Assembly: GCF_000410515.1 (NCBI RefSeq)
Contig: NC_021500.1
Location: 4,278,001 to 4,342,000, forward strand
Reading direction: 5' to 3'
Length of the DNA stretch: 64,000 nucleotides
Origin: Enterobacter sp. R4-368
Lineage (GTDB): Bacteria; Pseudomonadota; Gammaproteobacteria; Enterobacterales; Enterobacteriaceae
Under the pieces are notes generated by a model. The model did no database searches. It worked only from the letters and a program-made list of their open reading frames with translations, and was not told where the DNA came from. Numbering within the stretch: the stretch's first letter is position 1; each line of letters opens with the position of its first letter. Shown here in pieces: positions 43,226 through 54,404 of this stretch. The position numbers and the translations under genes were made by a program.

Positions 43226-44935
43226 TCACTTTTTACCGTTAGGTTTCAACTGCTCACCCGGTTTGAGCATGAACAACTCATCATCACGCGTGGAGTAGCG
43301 CACGGTGCCATCGGCCAGCAGATATGCGCCTTCGGTAAAGCCCGCGCCGTTAATGAATGGCGCAACCGCATCGGGTTTGCCGCGCATGGCCGCTTCCAGC
43401 GCCAGCAGTGCATAAGGCGCAATATTGTCGACATTGGCATAGATAAATTGCGGATCATCGATGAAAAAGTTATTCAGCCGTTTCGTTGCCAGAATATTGT
43501 CCGCCACTTTATCAGCCAGCGTCAGGTATCCTTTGTCGCCAGTAGATTGCCAGAGATCGATCAGCGCAAAAATGGCATATGGCTCGCTGTTTTTAGTGTT
43601 CAGATCCAGCTTGCTGTTTTTACCGCCCGGCTCACCGATATCACCCAGCCCCTGGCCTTTGGCGATGCCGCGCGCCACTTTCCACATCTCTGCGTCCGGT
43701 GCCAGTGTCCAGGCGCGGGCATAAGAGAGCAGGAATTCATTCCCCGCCGGGTAAGGCTTCAACACGGTGCCTTTCTTGCCGTAGTAACCATCGCGCGGCA
43801 GCGTGTAGTTCGACAAGTCGGTGCCGTTTGCCAGCATCGGGCGGAAGGTGTTGGTTTTCTCATCATAGGCGTAATGCGCAAAGGCTTTCAGGCCATCCAG
43901 CGTCCATTTTTTGATGTCGTTGCCATCCGCGCCCAGTGATTTTGCCAGCGCTAACTGCATCAGGGCGTTTTCGGAGTAGAGCGTGCTGGTGCGGCCTTTG
44001 AGCATCATATTGCCTTCCAGCGCGTCGGGGCCAAATTCCGGACCAAACTGGCGCTGTGCGCGATCGCCATACTTTGAGTTGGTATCGGTGTCGTCGGTCG
44101 TTTCGGCGCGTTTCAGCGCTTGCGTAAACTGATAAACACCCAGCCCGGTCTTTTTATCGCGTGGCAACACATACTGCTCCGCCAGTCGCTTCGCCCAGGT
44201 GAGCGCGCCTTTCTCGCCATCGTGTTGATACAACAGCGAAGCTGAATAAATTAAGTCATTGCCGGCGTTAAGAAAGCTCAGACCTTTGGTGGCGAAGAAC
44301 GGCGGTTGCTGTTCAAAATGGCTGGCCCACAGTTTGCCCATCTCTTTGCCGTATTCGCCGTGGCGGCTGGTTTCGAGGATTTTCCAGTCGTACACATGTG
44401 CGTTCCAGAACGCGCGGATAAAGCGGGCGGTTGCCGGTTTATCCACGGCAAACATCAGGTCGTAGTATGGGTAGGCATTTTTCAGTTCATGGACCATCTC
44501 TTTTTCGCTTGGCCCTTGTGGCTCAAGCGTTTTCAGATCAATAAAGCGGTGCCCACCCCATAGCAGCAGCCCGCTTTTGTCCTGGTAGTGCTGGAAGTAG
44601 TAACGGACATTATCTTCCGCCCGCTTTTTATATTTCGCGTCACCCGTCAGGTTACTCAGGCCAACCAGCACGCGCATCAGATTCTGCTGTGCGGAGAAGT
44701 TGGAAAGTACCGCCGTTTTTCCATCCGGAAAGACCCACTCCATCTGCTTACCGGTGCGTGGATCCACGCCATCCGCCAGCAGCGGCACATTGCTGTGATA
44801 TTTGTCACCGGCTTTATCAATGACCGTATCGGCAAACGCTTTTACACTGCTTAACCGCGCGCTCTCCTGCGCAAATGCCGTGCAGGAGAAGGTACCGAGA
44901 AGACCGACCGCCAGTGCTATTTTTGACAGTTTCAT
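43226..44935 (-). CDS. Periplasmic pectate lyase, polysaccharide lyase family 2
   Basis: This 569 aa enzyme has a signal peptide (1-22, AFA-Q) and the PL2 (alpha/alpha)7 barrel. Catalytic Arg191 and metal ligands His129, Glu150 and His192 are in place; all four lie exactly 20 residues after Arg171, His109, Glu130 and His172 of the Yersinia PL2 endolyase. It would cleave imported oligogalacturonides by beta-elimination in the periplasm. It lies 72 nt after kdgM on the same strand, so import and degradation appear co-expressed. Paralogues are called PelP, PelY or PelW; the cytosolic PelW lacks a signal peptide. Confidence 0.92.
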   Translation of the reverse strand: MKLSKIALAVGLLGTFSCTAFAQESARLSSVKAFADTVIDKAGDKYHSNVPLLADGVDPRTGKQMEWVFPDGKTAVLSNFSAQQNLMRVLVGLSNLTGDAKYKKRAEDNVRYYFQHYQDKSGLLLWGGHRFIDLKTLEPQGPSEKEMVHELKNAYPYYDLMFAVDKPATARFIRAFWNAHVYDWKILETSRHGEYGKEMGKLWASHFEQQPPFFATKGLSFLNAGNDLIYSASLLYQHDGEKGALTWAKRLAEQYVLPRDKKTGLGVYQFTQALKRAETTDDTDTNSKYGDRAQRQFGPEFGPDALEGNMMLKGRTSTLYSENALMQLALAKSLGADGNDIKKWTLDGLKAFAHYAYDEKTNTFRPMLANGTDLSNYTLPRDGYYGKKGTVLKPYPAGNEFLLSYARAWTLAPDAEMWKVARGIAKGQGLGDIGEPGGKNSKLDLNTKNSEPYAIFALIDLWQSTGDKGYLTLADKVADNILATKRLNNFFIDDPQFIYANVDNIAPYALLALEAAMRGKPDAVAPFINGAGFTEGAYLLADGTVRYSTRDDELFMLKPGEQLKPNGKK

Positions 44936-44953
44936 TATTCGCCTCTTAGATAA

Positions 44954-44981
44954 AATAAGGATTTCTGCCGAAACCCTTATT
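44954..44981 (-). terminator. Hairpin between kdgM and the pectate lyase gene
   Basis: AATAAGG-TTTC and GAAA-CCTTATT form an imperfect stem followed on the minus strand by TTTTAT. It may attenuate transcription so that the porin is made in excess of the lyase. Confidence 0.5.
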
Positions 44982-45007
44982 TATGTTTGCTGCCCTGCAA
45001 TTATTTA

Positions 45008-45709
45008 TTAGAAATTATATTTCACACCGACACGATAACGGGTCTGACGCTCATCGGTATATTTGCTGCCGGAAACGTTGCCCACGGCAATATACGGAGA
45101 CCAGTTTTTATCAAGTTTGTATGTCAGTTTGAGATCGTGCGTCCAGTCGTAGTTTTCATTATCTGCAATCAGTACGCCGGCGGACGTGGCATGTTTGTAA
45201 TCCAGCTCGTAATCGAGTTGGTAATCACCGAAAATTTTCCATGACACCGCAGCCGTCAGGTTATAGCCGTTTTCGCTGGTATCTTTTGCCGTACCGATGT
45301 TGTTGGAGTTACGTTTGAAGTACGGGCGGTAACGCAGCGTTGCGCCAACGTCATTGCTGAAGTTCACTTTGCCGCGCAGGTACGGGCGATAACTGTTCGA
45401 CGTGGAGCTACTGTCGAGTGAGAAACCCGGCTCAATCTGGAAGGTGGGGTTAATTTTATAGACGTAGCTGGCCACCACTTCGGTACCATTACTTACCGTC
45501 TCGTGATACGCCTTATCTTTATTTTGTGAACCTTTCCATTTGCCTTCCAGCGATAAACCAAAACCGTTAGCAAAACGGTGCGACATTAATAAACGATCTT
45601 TGTGATTATTACCGCCGCTATCATTTAATTCGTGGCGATAATCAAATGTTACCGCCTGGGCGGCAATACTCATAAAAGGTACAGTAACTAATAACAAAGT
45701 GCGCAACAT
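45008..45709 (-). CDS. kdgM: Oligogalacturonate-specific porin KdgM
   Basis: This 233 aa protein has a signal peptide (1-19, AQA-V), a mature start FDYRHELNDSG... that is typical of KdgM, and a 12-strand small beta-barrel ending in a C-terminal Phe (YRVGVKYNF). It lets acidic pectin fragments cross the outer membrane. AGGGGA precedes the start. It is upstream of, and probably co-transcribed with, the periplasmic lyase. KdgR and CRP control is usual in the family; a candidate KdgR box lies at 46101. Confidence 0.93.
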   Translation of the reverse strand: MLRTLLLVTVPFMSIAAQAVTFDYRHELNDSGGNNHKDRLLMSHRFANGFGLSLEGKWKGSQNKDKAYHETVSNGTEVVASYVYKINPTFQIEPGFSLDSSSTSNSYRPYLRGKVNFSNDVGATLRYRPYFKRNSNNIGTAKDTSENGYNLTAAVSWKIFGDYQLDYELDYKHATSAGVLIADNENYDWTHDLKLTYKLDKNWSPYIAVGNVSGSKYTDERQTRYRVGVKYNF

Positions 45710-46520
45710 AATATCCCCTATTATTTATAGTCAAAAGGTACAAGATGTTCTCTGCGAAAAATGCAGATGGTTTTAATTCAAAGAGGAATGGTTTATTCGC
45801 TCTCAGTGCAAATTGATATAATTAGCAAGCATAATAATTATGCCAAATATAGTTTCGGTGCAGTGATTGCTGATAACAACAGCAACGCTCACGTTACTTT
45901 TAAAGTGGCGTGTGGTGCCGGGTGCCTCCCGGTGAATTGAGTGCCGATCGCCTCAATCCGTCCATAAAAATGAAACTTTATTGAGAATAACCTCATATCA
46001 GCATGACCCCTCCGCTTAGGGGGATTCACCACACAAAATACGGTTTTGTCTGCATCAAGATATCTTTATCCTATCAAGTGGAACGGACTTTTACACATTT
46101 TGAAATGATGTTTTGAGACTGAGATCGAACATTTAAAAGTAGAATGAAAATTGTTATTTTGCTGATTATAAAGATAATCCTAATTTATTAAAATTCTTTA
46201 AAATCAATAAATTAATCAAAAAATATACAAGGGTGCATGTATGCAACTTTGTAAGGTTTACCCGCCAAATAAATAGCGCAGTAAATTTATTCCTGGAATA
46301 AAAGGCGAACATTTGACACAAAATGCAATACACTGAGCACATCAGGGAGAGTATGGAAAGGAAAATCAGGGTGATTTATGTTGTCGCAAACTAAACAAAC
46401 ATTAAACGAGCCAGAATCACGCTTGATCTGACTGAACACATCCCGCACATTCAGGAAAAAAGACCATGCCTCCGTTAGCGGAGAGGAAAATAATAAAACA
46501 TTACCCTCTGGAGTACCTAC
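45710..46520. other. Long AT-rich intergenic region between kdgM and a LuxR gene
   Basis: These 810 nt separate divergent genes. The part from 46100 to 46260 is very AT-rich. It contains the KdgR-like site described separately and a weaker related site at 45969-45988 (AATGAAAC...). I found no gene. Confidence 0.5.
46101..46115. promoter_or_regulatory. Possible KdgR-binding site
   Basis: TGAAATGATGTTTTG matches the core of the KdgR consensus (TGAAAYRYYRTTTYR) at 14 of 15 positions. It lies 390 nt before kdgM, which is far for direct repression, and about 400 nt before the divergent LuxR gene. The match is clear but occupancy is uncertain. Confidence 0.4.
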
Positions 46521-47057
46521 ATGACTATCTACGGGAAGGATCGCCTTTTCATTTATGGTATTGAGAAAATACTCAGACAACTTAACCGGGAAAAGGGCAG
46601 CCGTTTTTGCAGTGGTGCGCCTGCTATATATGTCACCACGGGAATGGACATTGTGGAAATGTACTCGCTGTTTTTCACCCGCCCCCCCGCGCACTACTCT
46701 ATTTTTATCTCCTCAGAACGCCATTTTGACTCGCTGTCGCTACTTTTCCCTGGTCTTGTGAAACTCTGTCTGGCCGAAAGGTTACGCGTAGAAGAGCTGC
46801 GTCAGGCGCTGGAAGTGATGAGTTTGTTATCGGCACAGAATCAGCAGCCGGGTTACAACCACGGCACATTTAAATTCACCAGCGCCGAACAGCAAATTAT
46901 GCGCCTGCTGCTGCGTGGACATTCGGTGGAGGATATCGCCCGCATTCGCGGTGTCAGCCCGACCACCGTCAGTGTGCAGCGCAACGGGTTAATGAAGCGC
47001 ACCGGCACCAAAAGTTTGCAGGCGCTTTGTTCGCTCTACACCGCAATGCGCGCATAA
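46521..47057 (+). CDS. LuxR-type helix-turn-helix regulator
   Basis: This 178 aa protein has a short N-terminal region (1-110) without a receiver phospho-Asp pattern and a C-terminal LuxR helix-turn-helix (about 115-175: FTSAEQQIMRLLLRGHSVEDIARIRGVSPTTVSVQRN). Its size and layout resemble RcsA/BglJ/GadE-type auxiliary regulators. RcsA and BglJ partner with RcsB. It lies between the pectin and pip loci. The target is unknown. Confidence 0.82.
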   Translation: MTIYGKDRLFIYGIEKILRQLNREKGSRFCSGAPAIYVTTGMDIVEMYSLFFTRPPAHYSIFISSERHFDSLSLLFPGLVKLCLAERLRVEELRQALEVMSLLSAQNQQPGYNHGTFKFTSAEQQIMRLLLRGHSVEDIARIRGVSPTTVSVQRNGLMKRTGTKSLQALCSLYTAMRA

Positions 47058-47079
47058 AAAAAGCGCCTGGCCGGCGCTT
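47056..47079 (-). terminator. Terminator of pip
   Basis: AAGCGCC TGGCC GGCGCTT forms a 7-bp stem. On the minus strand it is followed by T7, so it ends the pip transcript, about 30 nt beyond the stop codon. Confidence 0.8.
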
Positions 47080-47109
47080 AACAACACAACCTGGTGTGGG
47101 CAAACAGCC

Positions 47110-48003
47110 TCAGCATGTGGCCAGTAAAAAGTCGCTGACGGTCTTCATACACAACGGCCGCTCTTCGACGTGGGGCATGTGGCTTGAGGATTCAAAAATC
47201 ACCCACTGCGCCCCGGTAATATGGTCTTTGAAGGGTTGCACCACGTCCGGCGTGGCTTCGTCGTAGCGCCCGGAAATCAACAAAGTCGGCACGCGCACTT
47301 GCTTTAACCGGTCGATAATCGTCCAGTTTTTCATGCTGCCAATAACGTGGAATTCGGTGGGACCATTCATCGCGTGGTAAACGGTGGGATCAGCCTCCAT
47401 GGCGTCAAAGGTGCGTTGCACCTCCGCAGGCCACGGGTCGAGCCGACACACATGACGCTGATAAAATACCTGGCTTGCCGCTTTATACTCTGCGCTATCC
47501 ACCGTACCCGCCGCCTCATGGGTCAACAACGTGTCCTGCACATCCGGCGGTAATTGCGCGCGCAGCTTCGCCGCGCCTTCCAGCCACAGCGCCATCGAGG
47601 CCGGTGAGTTGGCAATCACCATCGCTTTCAGCCCCTGTGGCTGCGTCACCGCATGTTCTGCCGCCAGCATGCCGCCCCAGGACTGGCCGAGCAGCGCGTA
47701 GTTATCGGCAATTTCCAGCGCCTGCAGCAGATGATTGAGCTCATCAAGAAAAAGACCGGGTTGCCAGAAATCGGGGCTTTTATCCGGCAGATGGGTTGAA
47801 CGACCATTACCCACTTGATCGTAGTGGATCACCGCCCGTCCGGTTTCAGCGATATCTTTGAACGCATCAACGTAGTCGTGAGTGCAACCGGGGCCGCCAT
47901 GGGCCACTACCAGCGGCGTCTGCCCGCTTTGCAGATCGCCGCAGATGCGAAACCAGGTCTGATACTCCCGGAAGGGAACGTAGCCTTCGCGAATGGTATA
48001 CAT
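47110..48003 (-). CDS. pip: Proline iminopeptidase-family hydrolase (Pip)
   Basis: This 297 aa alpha/beta hydrolase of family S33 has HGGPG (35-39, oxyanion region), nucleophile Ser108 in GQSWGG, Asp248 in GRYDEATP and His275 in SSSHMPH. It removes N-terminal Pro or acts on amino-acid amides. No signal peptide is present, so it is cytosolic. In plant-associated bacteria, pip lies beside the XccR/OryR/PsoR/PipR class of LuxR solos and is their known target, and the same arrangement occurs here. A lux-box-like palindrome lies 65-82 nt before its start. Confidence 0.93.
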
Positions 48004-48012
48004 AGTTGACGT

Positions 48013-48045
48013 CTACCCTGTTAAGTGAACTGGCTTTCAGGGTAG
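48013..48045 (-). promoter_or_regulatory. Inverted repeat in the pip leader
   Basis: CTACCCTG (48013-48020) and CAGGGTAG (48038-48045) are perfect 8-nt arms separated by 17 nt. They lie between the lux-box-like site and the pip start codon. In RNA the stem would include the only AGGG near the start codon, so it could limit translation; as DNA it could be a second operator. Confidence 0.45.
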
Positions 48046-48067
48046 AACGCCGAAGGCGGCGCTGAAC

Positions 48068-48085
48068 ACTAGCAAAATTGCTAGT
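48068..48085. promoter_or_regulatory. Lux-box-like palindrome upstream of pip
   Basis: ACTAGCAAAATTGCTAGT has perfect 8-bp arms around a central AA, which is the size and form of a lux box. It begins 2 nt past the LuxR solo stop codon and lies 65 nt before pip. A related site lies on the other side of the solo gene at 48951. It should bind the LuxR solo encoded between the two sites. Confidence 0.7.
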
Positions 48086-48087
48086 TA

Positions 48088-48843
48088 TTAGCTGTCGAGC
48101 AGACGGTAGTGCAACGCCCGCACCACCGCCTGTACGCGGTTGGTCGCGCCAAGTTTTTTCGCCGCCGTATTCAGATGCAACGTCACGGTTGCCACCGAGC
48201 GGTGCAGCTTGCGGGCTATCTCTTTCGCCGTTAATCCTTCGGCTGACCACGCCAGGCACTCGCGCTCGCGGTTGCTTAATTTGACATGGCGGCAAGTGAG
48301 CATCGAGGCGTCAAACAGCGGAAAGGCAGACTCCTGAAAACGGTGGGCGATAAAGGTTAATTGCGCCAGCGTGTCGCTGATATCGCGCGCTTGCTGCTGG
48401 CTGGCGACAATGCCGGTCAGGGTGACAAACCCGCCGTGCGGCAAATGCAGCGGCACCGTGGCACCGCAGGGCATATTGTGGTCGCGCATGTAATGCGTCA
48501 CTTCCTGGGCGTTATCATCCAGCCTGCCATGCAGCGCCCCGCTGTCCGGGCGTTGATAGGACCAGACAAACGGCGCGCAGCTCTCCAGCGCGAAGTGCTG
48601 CACCGGGTCGACCTGGTAGTAACCGCGCTCGCACCACAAGCGGCGCATATCCTCCGGCACATTACGCATCTCCAGCAGCGACGGCGTGATAAGCGCCCCT
48701 TCCAGCGAGCGCGGAACCGGCGTGTAGTCATAAATCACCGCGTCAAAACCCAGCGCCTGCGTCTGGGTAAATAGCCCGGCAAACGCCTCCTCAAGCCTGC
48801 TGCCATTAGCAGCAGCAGGGTTTTCAATGTTTATTCGCATCAT
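48088..48843 (-). CDS. LuxR solo of the plant-associated type (OryR/XccR/PipR-like)
   Basis: This 251 aa regulator has an N-terminal autoinducer-binding-type domain (about 15-165) and a C-terminal LuxR helix-turn-helix (about 182-245: LSNRERECLAWSAEGLTAKEIARKLHRS). In the ligand pocket the usual Trp and Tyr are Met66 and Trp70 (PEDMRRLWCERGYYQVDPV), while Asp79, Pro80 and Trp94 are kept. The W-to-M and Y-to-W changes define LuxR solos that answer plant compounds instead of acyl-homoserine lactones. No luxI gene is present. Position between pip and a peptide ABC operon matches PipR in Pseudomonas; the Kosakonia member is known as LoxR. Confidence 0.92.
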   Translation of the reverse strand: MMRINIENPAAANGSRLEEAFAGLFTQTQALGFDAVIYDYTPVPRSLEGALITPSLLEMRNVPEDMRRLWCERGYYQVDPVQHFALESCAPFVWSYQRPDSGALHGRLDDNAQEVTHYMRDHNMPCGATVPLHLPHGGFVTLTGIVASQQQARDISDTLAQLTFIAHRFQESAFPLFDASMLTCRHVKLSNRERECLAWSAEGLTAKEIARKLHRSVATVTLHLNTAAKKLGATNRVQAVVRALHYRLLDS

Positions 48844-48950
48844 TCCCCCTCATGGTTGACGGTGCCACGCCACGGGCACGCTTTGTGCAGACTTCTCCCG
48901 TAGCGTGAGGAAGGTATGCAATTCCGGTGCCGTCACGCGGGAGAAGCAAA

Positions 48951-48968
48951 ACTAGTATTTTTGCTAAC
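48951..48968. promoter_or_regulatory. Second lux-box-like site, before the ABC operon
   Basis: ACTAGTATTTTTGCTAAC agrees with the pip palindrome at six of eight positions in each arm. It lies between the divergent solo gene (start 48843) and the transporter operon (start about 49109). It could serve either promoter. Confidence 0.55.
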
Positions 48969-49108
48969 TACCCAGCCTCCATGGATGCCGCTAGCGTAAA
49001 GAAAACGCCCGACAAACAAGGCCGGGCGCGGATAACCAGGGGAGTGGCGCACCATCGCGAGGCGTTTTTTTAACCTTACGACCCCGCATGCACCACAGGA
49101 GAATGCTG

Positions 49109-50047
49109 ATGCACCGTTACCGTTTTCTGTTATTCCGACCATTGCAGCTGCTGCCGGTGTTGTTGGGGATAAGCATCATCACGTTTGCGATGGTGCGCGC
49201 GATCCCCGGCGATCCGGCGCGCATCCTGCTTGGTGTGCGCAGCACGCCAGCGGCACTGGCGCGCATTCGTGCGCAGTTCGGACTGGATGAACCCCTGTGG
49301 GTACAGTATGGCTACTTTCTGCGCAATCTGGTGCAGGGCGAACTGGGAAAATCGATCGTCTACCGCATCGATACCCTAAAACTGATTAACTCCCGCCTTG
49401 AGCCCACCTTGTGGCTGGTGCTTGGCAGCGTGCTGCTGGCAGTTATTTTTACGGTGCCGTTGGCAGCGCTGGCGGCGCGTCAGCGTGGGCGCATCGCCGA
49501 CCAGCTTATTCGCCTGTTCACCACCGCCGGGCTCGGTTTCCCCGCCTTCTGGCTGGGCATCATGATGATCATAGTTTTTAGCGTGGTGCTGGGCTGGTTC
49601 CCGGTTTCCGGTTACGGCAGCGATTTTGCCGACCAGTTGCACCATATGGTGCTGCCGTGTCTGACCGTCGCGCTGGCGCTGTCGGCGGTGTTGATCCGCA
49701 ACCTGCGCGCCAGCCTGCTGATGGAGATGAGCAGCGATTACGTGATGGCCGCCAGAGCGCGCGGGCAGCGGGAAAACCGCATCTTCTGGCGGCATGTGTT
49801 ACCCAACTCACTGGTGCCGACGCTAAACCTGCTGGCGGTGAATATCGGCTGGCTGATTGGCAGCACGGTGGTGATTGAGAGCGTGTTCGCCATTCCGGGC
49901 CTGGGGCAACTGCTGGTAAAAGCGATTTTCAGCCGTGACTACATGGTGGTGCAGGGTGTGGTGATGGTATTTGCCCTTGCCACAGTCGCCGTCAACTTGT
50001 TGGCCGACGTACTGACGGTAGCGCTGGATCCGAGGGTGAAACTATGA
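49109..50047 (+). CDS. Peptide/nickel-type ABC transporter permease (DppB family)
   Basis: This 312 aa inner-membrane protein has about six transmembrane segments and the ABC permease EAA-type loop (MAARARGQRENRIFWRHVLPNSL, about 225-247). The N-terminal segment and ARIRAQFGLDEPLWVQY periplasmic stretch are typical of DppB/OppB. ATG 49109 has AGGAG 7 nt upstream; earlier in-frame ATGs are less well placed. It starts a five-gene unit whose reading frames overlap by a few bases. Confidence 0.93.
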   Translation: MHRYRFLLFRPLQLLPVLLGISIITFAMVRAIPGDPARILLGVRSTPAALARIRAQFGLDEPLWVQYGYFLRNLVQGELGKSIVYRIDTLKLINSRLEPTLWLVLGSVLLAVIFTVPLAALAARQRGRIADQLIRLFTTAGLGFPAFWLGIMMIIVFSVVLGWFPVSGYGSDFADQLHHMVLPCLTVALALSAVLIRNLRASLLMEMSSDYVMAARARGQRENRIFWRHVLPNSLVPTLNLLAVNIGWLIGSTVVIESVFAIPGLGQLLVKAIFSRDYMVVQGVVMVFALATVAVNLLADVLTVALDPRVKL

Positions 50048-50889
50048 GTGCTATCAGCGTACTGACCGTGTTGCGTCGCCGCGCTATTCCACAGCAGCAT
50101 GCCCTGGGCGTTGGGCTGTTGATTGTCGGCTTGTGGCTGTGCGTCGCGTTATTCGCCCCGTGGCTGGCACCGTTTGATCCGATAACCCAGGATGCGACCG
50201 CCAGCTTGCTGCCGCCAGGGAGCGCACATCTTTTTGGCACGGATAACTTTGGCCGCGACATCTTCTCCCGCGTGCTGTGGGGCGCGCGGGTGGATCTGCA
50301 AATCTGTCTGCTGGGCGTTATCTTTCCATTTCTGCTCGGCACCACGCTCGGCGCGCTGTCAGGCTACCTGGGTGGCGCGGTGGATGCGCTGATCATGCGC
50401 ATTATCGATATCGTTCTGGCGTTCCCGTTTCTGGTGTTGATGCTGGCGATTATCGCCATTCTCGGGCCGGGTCTTGGCAGTTTTTACATCGCGATGGCGA
50501 TGGTTGGCTGGGTCTCTTACGCCCGGCTGGTGCGGGCGCAGGTATTAACCCTCAAGCAGCGTGATTTTGTGCTGGCGGCGCGTAGCCTCGGCTATGGTCA
50601 TGCCCGCATTCTGTTTCGCCACTTGCTGCCTAACGCCATGACCGGCGCGCTGGTGTTTTCCATGTCGGATTGCGTGCTGGTGCTGTTAAACGGCGCGGCG
50701 GTGAGCTACCTCGGTCTTGGCGTACAACCGCCGACGGCCGAGTGGGGCGTGATGGTGGCAGAAGGGCAGAGTTTTATCACTACTGCCTGGTGGATAACCA
50801 CCTTTCCGGGGCTGGCGATTGTTCTGCTGGCAATGGGCTTCAGCCTGCTGGCGGATGGTCTTGGCGACAAACTGGGAGCGCGCGTATGA
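50044..50889 (+). CDS. Peptide ABC transporter permease (DppC family)
   Basis: This 281 aa permease has the N-terminal amphipathic/TM segment, the DNFGRDIFSRVLWGARVDLQIC-type family stretch (about 62-83) and the EAA loop LAARSLGYGHARILFRHLLPN. It pairs with the DppB-like protein to form the membrane channel. Its ATG overlaps the stop of the preceding gene (ATGA), indicating translational coupling. Confidence 0.93.
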   Translation: MSAISVLTVLRRRAIPQQHALGVGLLIVGLWLCVALFAPWLAPFDPITQDATASLLPPGSAHLFGTDNFGRDIFSRVLWGARVDLQICLLGVIFPFLLGTTLGALSGYLGGAVDALIMRIIDIVLAFPFLVLMLAIIAILGPGLGSFYIAMAMVGWVSYARLVRAQVLTLKQRDFVLAARSLGYGHARILFRHLLPNAMTGALVFSMSDCVLVLLNGAAVSYLGLGVQPPTAEWGVMVAEGQSFITTAWWITTFPGLAIVLLAMGFSLLADGLGDKLGARV

Positions 50890-51866
50890 GTTTGCTAAAC
50901 GTCTCGCAACTGACCATTTCCCGGGGGGATGATGGCGCGCTGGTGGATAAGGTCTCTTTCCGGCTGCAGGCCGGGGAAATGCTGGGGCTGGTGGGCGAGA
51001 GCGGTTCCGGAAAAACCGTGACCTGCCGGGCGCTAATGCGACTGCTGCCGGGGCAGGGATTGACGATTAGCGGTGGCGAAGTGTGGTTTGGCGGGCGCGA
51101 TCTGTTGTCGCTTAGCGAAGCGCAGATGTCGGCGGTGCGCGGACGGGAAATTGGCATGATTTTCCAGAATCCGGCCAGCCACTTAAACCCGGTAATGACC
51201 ATTGGCGAGCAGATTGCCGAAAGCCGCCGCCTGCATTTCGGCGTTAACCGTCGGCAGGCAAAAGAGGATGCCAAAGAGTTGCTGCGCCAGGTGGGCATTC
51301 CCGATCCGCAAAACCGCATTAACAACTATCCGCACGAATTTTCCGGCGGTATGCGCCAGCGCGCGATGATTGCTGTGGCGCTGGCGCCGGAACCGTCGCT
51401 GCTGATTGCCGATGAGCCGACCACCGCGCTGGATGTCACCGTGCAGATGCAGATCCTGCGTTTGCTCAGCACCCTGCGCAAGCAGTTAGGCCTGGCGGTG
51501 GTGATGATCACCCACGATCTCGGCGTGGTGGCGCAAACCTGCGATCGCATTGCGGTGATGTACGGCGGGCGTTTATGCGAAGTGGGCGGCAAACGTGAAG
51601 TGCTGGCGCAGCCGCTGCACCCGTACACGCGCGGGTTAATTGATTGCCAGCCCTCCAGCGAAGGCGGGCAGGGACGGCTGGTCACCATCAATGGACAACC
51701 GCCGCTGGCAGGGAGCTTCCCGACCGGCTGCCGCTTTCACCCGCGTTGCCCGCAGGCGAGCAGCGCATGTCAGCAGCAGCCTTCGTTACTGTTCGGGCGC
51801 GACAGCCTGACGCACGCGGCGGCGTGCCATCACGCCTTACAGCCACTGACTCAGCGGGAGGGATAA
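50886..51866 (+). CDS. Peptide ABC transporter ATPase (DppD family)
   Basis: This 326 aa ATPase has Walker A GESGSGKT (about 35-42), the signature FSGGMRQRA, Walker B LLIADEPTTALD and the C-terminal CRFHPRCPQA motif with Cys that in this family may hold an iron-sulfur centre. ATGA overlap with the preceding permease fixes the start at 50886. It energises import together with the DppF-like subunit. Confidence 0.94.
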   Translation: MSLLNVSQLTISRGDDGALVDKVSFRLQAGEMLGLVGESGSGKTVTCRALMRLLPGQGLTISGGEVWFGGRDLLSLSEAQMSAVRGREIGMIFQNPASHLNPVMTIGEQIAESRRLHFGVNRRQAKEDAKELLRQVGIPDPQNRINNYPHEFSGGMRQRAMIAVALAPEPSLLIADEPTTALDVTVQMQILRLLSTLRKQLGLAVVMITHDLGVVAQTCDRIAVMYGGRLCEVGGKREVLAQPLHPYTRGLIDCQPSSEGGQGRLVTINGQPPLAGSFPTGCRFHPRCPQASSACQQQPSLLFGRDSLTHAAACHHALQPLTQREG

Positions 51867-52903
51867 TGTCGACACCGGCAAACTGGCCTTTGCTGGAAGC
51901 GGATAACGTCTCAGTCACGTTTCCGGTTTCCGGCGGGTTGCTCAGCAAAAAACGCGTGGTCCACGCGGTAAACCAGGTGACGCTCAAAATCCACGCGGGT
52001 GAAACGCTGGGATTAGTGGGCGAATCCGGCAGCGGCAAAAGCACGCTGGGGCGGGCGCTGTTGCAGCTAGAAAAGATCAATGATGGTGAAGTGCGTTTCG
52101 ACGGCCACCGCGTCACTCACGGTCTGAAAAGCGACATCGCGCGGCTGCGTCTGCAAACGGCGATGATTTTTCAGGATCCGTTCGCCTCGCTTAACCCGCG
52201 GCAGACAATAGGTGAGAGCATCAGCGAAGTGCTGCGCGTCCACCAGAAAGTGCCGCGCGACCGGATTAGCGCACGGGTTGAAGAACTGCTGACGTTGGTC
52301 GGCTTGCGCCCGGAGCACGCCGCAGCCAAACCCGGCCAACTGAGCGGCGGGCAGTGCCAGCGGGCGGGGATTGCGCGGGCGCTGGCGATCGAACCCCGGT
52401 TGATCGTCGCCGACGAGTGCGTGGCGGCGCTGGATGTCTCCATTCAGGGGCAGATCGTCAATTTGCTGATGGATCTGCGTGAAAAAATGGGGCTGGCGAT
52501 CCTGTTTATTGCCCACGATCTGGCGATTGTGCGCCGCCTGTGCGATCGGGTGGCGGTGATGTACCTCGGGCGGATCGTCGAAGAAGGCCCCGCAGAAGCC
52601 GTCTTTACCCATCCGCGCCACCCTTATACCGCTGCGCTAGTCTCCGCCATCCCGGAAATCGACCCGGATAAACCGTTGCCGCAGGAGACGCTTACGGGCG
52701 AGCCGCCGAGCCCGGTTGCCATTCCACAAGGTTGCGCGTTTCATCCGCGCTGCCCTTACGCGCAGGTGCAGTGCCGCACTGGCGCATTACCCCCGACCCG
52801 GCAGATTGCCGATCACGCCTGGACCTGTGTGCTGACGCACGCAGGCGAGAAGAGTGTTTTTCCTTTGACTGAGGGATCCTTTGATGAAGCACAAGCAAGT
52901 TAA
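51866..52903 (+). CDS. Peptide ABC transporter ATPase (DppF family)
   Basis: This 345 aa ATPase has Walker A GESGSGKST, signature LSGGQCQRAGIARAL, Walker B LIVADECVAALDVS and the CAFHPRCPYA C-terminal motif. The Walker B loop reads DECVAALD instead of the usual DEPVSALD, which is unusual but keeps the catalytic Glu. Its start overlaps the preceding stop (TAATG) and its end overlaps the binding-protein gene by 20 nt. Confidence 0.93.
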   Translation: MSTPANWPLLEADNVSVTFPVSGGLLSKKRVVHAVNQVTLKIHAGETLGLVGESGSGKSTLGRALLQLEKINDGEVRFDGHRVTHGLKSDIARLRLQTAMIFQDPFASLNPRQTIGESISEVLRVHQKVPRDRISARVEELLTLVGLRPEHAAAKPGQLSGGQCQRAGIARALAIEPRLIVADECVAALDVSIQGQIVNLLMDLREKMGLAILFIAHDLAIVRRLCDRVAVMYLGRIVEEGPAEAVFTHPRHPYTAALVSAIPEIDPDKPLPQETLTGEPPSPVAIPQGCAFHPRCPYAQVQCRTGALPPTRQIADHAWTCVLTHAGEKSVFPLTEGSFDEAQAS

Positions 52904-54398
52904 GTTATTGGCAGCCAGCGTTTTTCTGGCGCTCAGTGTGGTCAGTGAAATGGCGCAGGCGGCTGGCGTTCTGACGATTGGCCGTCGGGAAGACAGCACC
53001 ACGTTTGATCCGATCAAATCGGCGCAGAACGCGGATAACTGGGTCTTTTCCAACGTTTTTGATCCGCTGGTGCGCGTCGATAAAACCGGCACCAAACTGG
53101 AACCGGGCGTGGCGGAAAGCTGGACAATTTCCCCGGATGGCAAGGTCTATACCTTTAAAATCCGCGATACCAAATTCTCTGACGGCACGCCGGTAAGCGC
53201 CAGCGACGCGGCTTTCAGCCTGCTGCGCATTCGTAGTGATGAAGGATCGCTCTGGCGCGACTCGTACAGCATTATTGATAAAGCCGAAGCGCCGGATGCG
53301 CGCACGCTGGTGGTGACGCTGAAATCGCCCTCTGCGCCGTTCCTGTCACAGCTGGCGCTGCCGAACGCGTCGGTGATCTCCGAGAAAGCGCTGAAAGCCG
53401 AAGGCGAAGAAACCTTCGCGGAAAAACCGGTCGGTTCCGGCGCGTTCAGCGTAAAAGAGTGGGTGCGCGGCGAAAAAATCGTGCTGGTGAAGAACCCGAA
53501 CTACTGGCAGGCGAAGAATGTCAGCCTTGATGAAGTGGACTGGCTGACCATCCCGGATGACAACACGCGTATGTTGAAAGTGCAGGCCGGCGAACTGGAT
53601 GCCGCGCTGACGGTGCCGTTCTCGCGCATTGCCTCGCTGCAAAAAGATAGCAACCTGAAAGTGGAGCTGGATCCGTCAACCCGCGAAGATCATCTGCTTA
53701 TCAACCATTCGCACGGCGCGCTTGGCAAAGTAGAGGTGCGCCAGGCGCTGGACTTTGCCATCGATAAAGACGCGATTGTCAAAACCGTGACCTTTGGTTA
53801 CGGCCAGGTGGCGAACTCCTATATTCCGGCCGGTGCGCTCTATCACTACAACGACAACTTGCGTCGCCCTTACGATCCTGAAAAAGCGAAACAGATGCTG
53901 AAAGCGGCGGGCGCGGGCGATCTGACGCTGAATTATGTGGTTAACGCCGGGGATGAGGTGGATGAGCAAATCGCCATTTTACTGCAACAGCAGCTGGCGA
54001 AAGCGGGCGTGAAGGTGAACTTGCAGAAAGTTGACCCCAGCCAGAGCTGGGACATGCTGGTGGCCGGTGAGTACGATATTTCGGTGATGTACTGGACCAA
54101 CGACATTCTCGACCCGGATCAGAAAACCACCTTTGTGCTCGGCCATGACACGAACATGAACTACATGACGCGTTATAAGAACGACAAAGTGAAAGCGCTG
54201 GTGGCGGCGGCACGTGTAGAAATGGATGCGAAAAAACGTGAACAGATGTATATCGAGCTGCAAAAAATGGCGAAAGCTGATGTGAACTGGATCGATCTCT
54301 ACTACAGCCCCTATCGCAATGTGACGCGGAAGAATATTGAAGGTTTCTACCAGAATCCGCTGGGACGTTTCTTCCTTGAAGATACGGTGAAAAAATAG
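52884..54398 (+). CDS. Periplasmic peptide-binding protein (SBP family 5)
   Basis: This 504 aa protein has a Sec signal peptide (cleavage after AQA-A) and the family-5 binding-protein fold (DSTTFDPIKSAQNADNWVFSNVFDPL, WTISPDGKVYTFKIRD, RQALDFAIDKDAIVK). There is no lipobox. It would deliver a peptide- or amide-like ligand to the transporter. Here it is the last gene of the operon, whereas in dpp the binding protein comes first. By analogy with the pipR locus it may import the plant signal or its precursor. Confidence 0.94.
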   Translation: MKHKQVKLLAASVFLALSVVSEMAQAAGVLTIGRREDSTTFDPIKSAQNADNWVFSNVFDPLVRVDKTGTKLEPGVAESWTISPDGKVYTFKIRDTKFSDGTPVSASDAAFSLLRIRSDEGSLWRDSYSIIDKAEAPDARTLVVTLKSPSAPFLSQLALPNASVISEKALKAEGEETFAEKPVGSGAFSVKEWVRGEKIVLVKNPNYWQAKNVSLDEVDWLTIPDDNTRMLKVQAGELDAALTVPFSRIASLQKDSNLKVELDPSTREDHLLINHSHGALGKVEVRQALDFAIDKDAIVKTVTFGYGQVANSYIPAGALYHYNDNLRRPYDPEKAKQMLKAAGAGDLTLNYVVNAGDEVDEQIAILLQQQLAKAGVKVNLQKVDPSQSWDMLVAGEYDISVMYWTNDILDPDQKTTFVLGHDTNMNYMTRYKNDKVKALVAAARVEMDAKKREQMYIELQKMAKADVNWIDLYYSPYRNVTRKNIEGFYQNPLGRFFLEDTVKK

Positions 54399-54404
54399 AA
54401 CAGG

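Follow-up and report, generated by a model that had tools for sequence, protein, structure and literature searches.

A 64,000-nucleotide window of the Enterobacter sp. R4-368 genome (GCF_000410515.1, contig NC_021500.1, positions 4,278,001 to 4,342,000; coordinates below are counted from its first letter) contains a LuxR solo, PsrR, situated between a pip gene and a divergent peptide ABC importer. In our judgement, held with somewhat better than even confidence, this unit represents the PipR/AapF-type system of Enterobacterales, in which PsrR would serve pip and the importer in a loop through two operators, termed sites A and B, and psrR itself would have a sigma-54 promoter. This unit has been described before: of eight sequences published for the psrR locus in the rice endophyte Kosakonia KO348 (six primers and two candidate operator boxes; PMC7301841), seven occur in the window without mismatch and the eighth, a primer, differs at one position, which identifies the two loci as the same. 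Neither the A and B operators, nor their link to the importer, nor the sigma-54-type psrR promoter, nor the lack of the AapA peptidase in Kosakonia turned up in a literature search conducted mostly at abstract level with few subscription texts.

The solo (48088-48843, minus strand), identified by open reading frame (ORF), Pfam and residue analysis and as KO348 psrR by primer mapping, consists of an autoinducer-binding domain (PF03472) and a LuxR-type helix-turn-helix domain (PF00196). It shares 99% identity with its counterpart in Kosakonia strain JM-387. Alignment assigned M66, W70, D79, P80 and Q82, with Met66 and Trp70 at the positions of TraR W57 and Y61, and E58, V62 and R67 are the residues reported for PsrR (PMC7301841). 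Related loci were collected in three sets (26 + 30 + 6, 62 in total), of which 47 had distinct flanks; four with solos below 60% identity (L031 and L076-L078), which match no A, B or sigma-54 pattern, were left out, leaving 43 (L001-L006 and L033-L042 are outside the counts). The family-wide search yielded 31 solo matches in 30 of 392 genomes, from which 30 loci were taken, the class-wide search matched only the genome itself (1 of 369), and six of 152 plasmid records were included. M66, W70 and Q82 are invariant in all 43 loci, and the domains, the M/W residues and the pip neighbour support placement of the solo in the plant-associated bacterial (PAB)/PipR subfamily. The 5.155-Mb genome, assembled in two contigs, encodes two autoinducer-binding proteins, this solo and a second one near 0.98 Mb that is probably of the SdiA type. 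ORF and Pfam analysis identified no LuxI among the genes around the solo; a genome-wide PF00765 (LuxI) search also gave no match, but neither did its 14 controls.

Motif search, genome counts and conservation identified site A (ACTAGCAAAATTGCTAGT, 48068-48085, minus strand), at which the solo is proposed to control pip, and site B (ACTAGTATTTTTGCTAAC, 48951-48968, plus strand), its proposed operator for the importer genes. Site A lies between the solo stop codon and pip, its centre 73.5 nt upstream of the pip ATG. With 16 of 18 positions it comes close to a perfect palindrome, whereas B is an imperfect one (8 of 18). Their core, YTAGYANNNNTRCTAR, which was picked after comparison with relatives, has only two exact matches in the genome, A and B, with 19 further places at one mismatch. 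Read backwards, it occurs at 247 places with at most one mismatch; set against the few forward matches, this indicates that the motif letters are rare in the genome generally. The loose site pattern (up to two mismatches) did not reach significance within the window (4 matches versus 9.7 expected), and a version with three mismatches, giving 1169 matches, was too loose for use. Site B is kept without mismatch in all 39 loci that have the importer next to the solo (solo identity at least 60%) and in none of the four loci without it, all from Trabulsiella (L021, L023, L025 and L032). Site A has no mismatch in 24 of the 43 loci, one mismatch in one and two in 16, and was not found in two; it is centred 67.5-76.5 nt upstream of the pip start in the aligned loci having it. 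The corresponding site in Pseudomonas GM79, of which one mutated form was built, is centred at -71.5 (PMC4981722). Boxes of the pip and las types carry CT(N12)AG (PMC4471428), which is matched by A and missed by B through a single base. The retention of this departure in 39 of 39 loci suggests that B may be a weaker, graded operator, in line with the strong effect of PipR on pipA and its slight effect on aapA in GM79 (PMC4981722).

In the window, both sites are followed at the same distance by a weak -10-like hexamer of the form TAnCnT. The proposed pip -10 (TACCCT, 48039-48044, minus strand) and importer -10 (TAGCGT, 48992-48997, plus strand), both assigned by spacing, lie 23 nt after A and B, respectively, and a proposed pip -35, GTTCAG, placed by position (48062-48067, minus strand), abuts A. 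The gap from B to TA[AG]CGT is 23 nt in 34 of 39 loci, the hexamer being absent in five Lonsdalea-type loci, and the gap from A is 23 nt in 30, 22 nt in nine and 24 nt in two of 41 loci. In LuxR-type activated promoters the dyad sits immediately before the -35, at about -42 to -45 relative to the transcription start. Read as -10s, the hexamers would, with a 17-nt spacer, bring a -35 against each site and thus give this activator layout. A hairpin (49005-49029, minus strand) lies where the importer leader presumably begins and is terminator-like on the minus strand; its arms vary yet still pair in several Kosakonia, and the scan that detected it found three versus 1.5 expected, which is not above chance.

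Sigma-54 promoters have a -24/-12 form resembling TGGCAC-N5-TTGC, with GG and GC 10 nt apart. Alignment and pattern counts placed a putative promoter of this type upstream of the solo (GGCACCGGAATTGCAT, 48916-48931, minus strand), comprising a block GGCAC-N5-TTGCAT that points at the solo, with GG and GC 10 nt apart and a variable middle; transcription of psrR would start near 48905. The pattern GGCA[CT]-N5-TTGC is present in 38 of the 43 loci and in 23 of 21,500 mononucleotide shuffles, and GGCAYN5TTGCAT occurs at four places in the genome. A second GG-N10-GC element (48875-48890, plus strand) faces this block, and a pattern search finds it in 26 of 43 loci; since these include Trabulsiella loci without the importer, it probably does not serve as promoter of the importer. 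In Lonsdalea (L027-L030), two tandem B sites precede the importer and no sigma-54 block precedes the solo, a natural variant in which the solo is perhaps controlled differently.

The enhancer-binding protein acting with sigma-54 could be NtrC, the box of which has been published as TGCACCAnnnTGGTGCA (PMC8743547). The corresponding TGCACC-N5-GGTGCA was searched for upstream of the sigma-54 block in 26 representatives, excluding site B and its promoter, and was found in nine with at most two mismatches and in four with at most one, as compared to means of 0.39 and 0.05 and maxima of three and one in 300 dinucleotide shuffles. A stretch within the solo gene yielded it in none of the 26. The pattern has 262 matches genome-wide (90 when reversed), which predicts about 0.3 for the searched stretch. 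When 45,056 palindromes were ranked, again without B, TGCACC-N5 is one of eight reaching at least nine of 26 representatives, another being its variant CGCACC-N5, and is exceeded by CGGCAG-N9 and CCGCCG-N3 (10 each); it is among the best palindromes, not the single best. Kosakonia loci L008 and L045 carry NtrC-like sequences with two mismatches. As a guess, NtrC control is thus reasonable for the group and weak for strain R4-368. RpoN and NtrC have no occurrence in the available text of PMC7301841, PMC10134790 and PMC4981722, and the mostly abstract-level literature search revealed no link of sigma-54 or NtrC to the PAB solo family. That nitrogen limitation gates the Pip-system receptor in Enterobacterales via NtrC and sigma-54, with importer and peptidase also scavenging nitrogen, is a tentative proposal to which we give rather less than even weight.

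The importer is encoded on the plus strand by two permease genes of the AapB (49088-50047, with a second in-frame ATG at 49103 preceded by AGGAG) and AapC (50044-50889) types, two ATPase genes of the AapD (about 50886-51866) and AapE (about 51866-52903) types, the starts of which were set by eye at in-frame Met codons, and a gene for a solute-binding protein (52881-54398), all assigned by ORF and Pfam analysis. On the opposite side of the solo, pip (47110-48003, minus strand; ORF, Pfam) encodes a proline-iminopeptidase-type alpha/beta hydrolase. The solute-binding protein matches the AapF structures 7kz8 and 7kz9 with 767 bits, versus 182 for the next chain, and is identical to 7kz8 at 332 of 479 aligned residues, which supports orthology of the importer with the AapF system of GM79. 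The operon is complete but has no gene for the AapA peptidase at its head; AapA was found in 14 of 47 loci and, given the many relatives that lack it, is no requirement for the wider PipR/AapF group. An AapF-type protein is encoded in 12 of 15 genomes of the genus, and of the three others G193 and G390, both searched, also lack the solo; the same query found none in three presumed Trabulsiella genomes (G081, G199 and G338). In GM79 the PipR response needs the ABC transporter (PMC4981722), which imports HEHEAA according to a review that also describes a close homologue from another species not binding this compound (PMC10134790). A sequence-only reading of this DNA had already described Met66 and Trp70 in the solo, its position between pip and a complete peptide ABC operon, and lux-box-like sites at pip and in the solo/ABC region. 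All of these features hold up, with the qualifications noted above for AapA and for the palindromy of B, and the genome-wide motif search proposed along with them returned A and B as the only exact matches. The sigma-54-type promoter ahead of the solo and the earlier publication of the locus were not part of that reading.

From the observed sequences, their conservation, spacing and genome-wide uniqueness, and the orthology of the importer, we infer a circuit of binding, activation, ligand import and sigma-54 use. Sigma-54 together with an enhancer-binding protein, perhaps NtrC, would produce PsrR, so that the receptor would be present only when this activator is active. The importer would take up a plant or peptide-like amide signal, and PsrR with its ligand would activate two promoters, that of pip from A and that of the importer from B, both sites lying directly against the -35 position. 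Because the genome has only two exact sites, the loop would be local. Import would thereby be amplified in a positive feedback, and Pip would probably degrade or edit the signal as a negative feedback, as proposed for GM79, where the stronger response of peptidase mutants (PMC4981722) is as expected of a brake.

Several observations weigh against this interpretation, the strongest of which comes from KO348 itself. A 146-bp pip reporter had no activity that depended on PsrR, and neither rice root macerate nor ethanolamine nor HEHEAA induced it (PMC7301841). Its primers span 47971-48117 and therefore include site A, which rules out a null result caused by a reporter lacking the site. The response of a pip reporter expected by the sequence-only reading was thus not seen in KO348, and of the circuit it had drawn, in which an imported plant amide or peptide is sensed by the solo and induces both pip and import, the subfamily, the importer orthology and the conservation of the sites with pip and importer are supported, whereas the silent reporter speaks against induction of pip. 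The KO348 authors considered that psrR expression might be too low (PMC7301841), an idea that would gain a mechanism from the sigma-54 element on psrR; too little solo in the absence of sigma-54 activation is a candidate explanation for the silence. Nitrogen gating of psrR, if true, would also account for it; both LB and minimal medium are named in the paper (PMC7301841). Furthermore, Pseudomonas syringae pv. actinidiae expresses its solo PsaR2 strongly, yet pip was unresponsive in vitro (PMC3909224), so that a low receptor level cannot account for every silent case, and GM79 PipR responded in M9-succinate (PMC4981722) and OryR builds up in rich medium, which means that nitrogen shortage is not a family-wide rule. 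The PsaR2 and GM79 counterexamples are both from Pseudomonas. With respect to the psrR promoter, the sigma-54 pattern was picked after the alignment had been inspected, so that the case rests on conservation; sigma-54-like matches in the window alone are not significant (12 versus 16.5 expected), and five Lonsdalea-type loci lack the pattern. The NtrC-box-like sequence of the window (49048-49064, minus strand) is degenerate, and with four mismatches is no evidence alone. In addition, the 43 loci are mutually related, and their counts overstate the independent evidence.

Some of these points would also fit the same two operators served by a solo that is constitutively expressed from an ordinary promoter, the GGCAY-N5-TTGC block being, for example, a repressor or activator site. 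No enhancer-binding protein is linked to the block, the Lonsdalea-type loci have the unit without it, the NtrC-like site of the window is poor, and the face-to-face arrangement with a second GG-N10-GC in 26 of 43 loci would be odd for two sigma-54 promoters. We nevertheless consider this explanation unlikely, as the 10-nt spacing of GG and GC around a variable middle is kept in 38 of 43 loci and a scan for consensus sigma-70 promoters across 47900-49200 found none (0.3 expected), a scan that also missed the proposed pip and importer promoters. A solo that represses, or works without ligand, at A and B would agree with the absence of induction in KO348 (PMC7301841); a dimer by the -35 could block polymerase, and some LuxR proteins repress when their ligand is absent (PMC4471428). 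This is improbable by a wide measure, given that PipR activates pipA from a similarly placed site (PMC4981722), that the weak -10 and -35 elements of both promoters suit activation and that no PsrR-dependent pip activity was seen under the KO348 conditions (PMC7301841).

The boxes that the KO348 authors proposed, and said to need testing (PMC7301841), map to 48023-48042 on the pip side and 49022-49041 on the psrR side, both on the minus strand. That these are the real operators of a single psrR-pip transcript, with A and B unused, is the authors' own proposal combined with their remark that such an operon is possible (PMC7301841), and has very little probability, because the psrR-side box has at least six mismatches in 39 of 43 loci, the pip-side box has at least seven in 23 of 43 and overlaps the proposed -10, and A and B are much better conserved.

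Compared to described systems, the unit with two operators and a sigma-54-type psrR promoter shares its locus with KO348 psrR, which has dipeptide ABC genes and pip alongside (PMC7301841), the KO348 paper differing in its candidate boxes and, in the text available, naming no sigma-54 element. With PipR/AapA-F of GM79 it has in common a solo flanked by pip and by a peptide importer reading the other way, a site before pip at about -72 (PMC4981722) and the AapF orthologue. It differs in that AapA heads the GM79 operon and is absent from the Kosakonia unit, in the residues (W/W in GM79 PipR versus M/W in PsrR; PMC7301841), and in that GM79 responds to HEHEAA (PMC10134790) and KO348 did not (PMC7301841). 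The accessible text of the GM79 paper (PMC4981722) mentions no sigma-54 control. Like the plant-responsive solos OryR, XccR, XagR and XocR of Xanthomonas, PsrR is encoded beside pip, and A fits their CT(N12)AG pip box (PMC4471428). In contrast, an APC-type transporter gene rather than a peptide ABC importer is located near the Xanthomonas solos (PMC4981722), and wider regulons have been reported or suggested for OryR and XocR.

A small protein containing only a LuxR-type helix-turn-helix (GerE; 46521-47057, plus strand) is encoded beside pip, at the same place as in Kosakonia L007-L012. Close to the unit in Kosakonia are also genes for a periplasmic pectate lyase and a KdgM oligogalacturonate porin (43226-45709, minus strand). 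A one-mismatch motif before kdgM (45822-45837) was considered as a third PsrR target, which was tempting because XagR is listed next to a periplasmic pectate lyase (PMC10134790) and one is encoded here at 43226-44935; as the motif is kept in L007 and changed in L008-L012 (five of six Kosakonia loci), a chance match is likely and the candidate was rejected. The whole unit with AapA, A, B and the sigma-54 block is also carried by a Klebsiella variicola plasmid (L073, NZ_CP103421.1), which is typed as conjugative by PLSDB and has insertion sequence genes near the unit.

LuxR solos of the PAB type are found in many plant bacteria, and some of them, including PsrR, have remained silent in laboratory reporters. 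The conserved sigma-54-type promoter ahead of the receptor gene suggests a specific cause of this silence in Enterobacterales that can be tested at low cost, and the conserved operators provide the right DNA for such tests. If true, the proposed arrangement would tie a plant-to-bacterium signal to the metabolic state of the bacterium.

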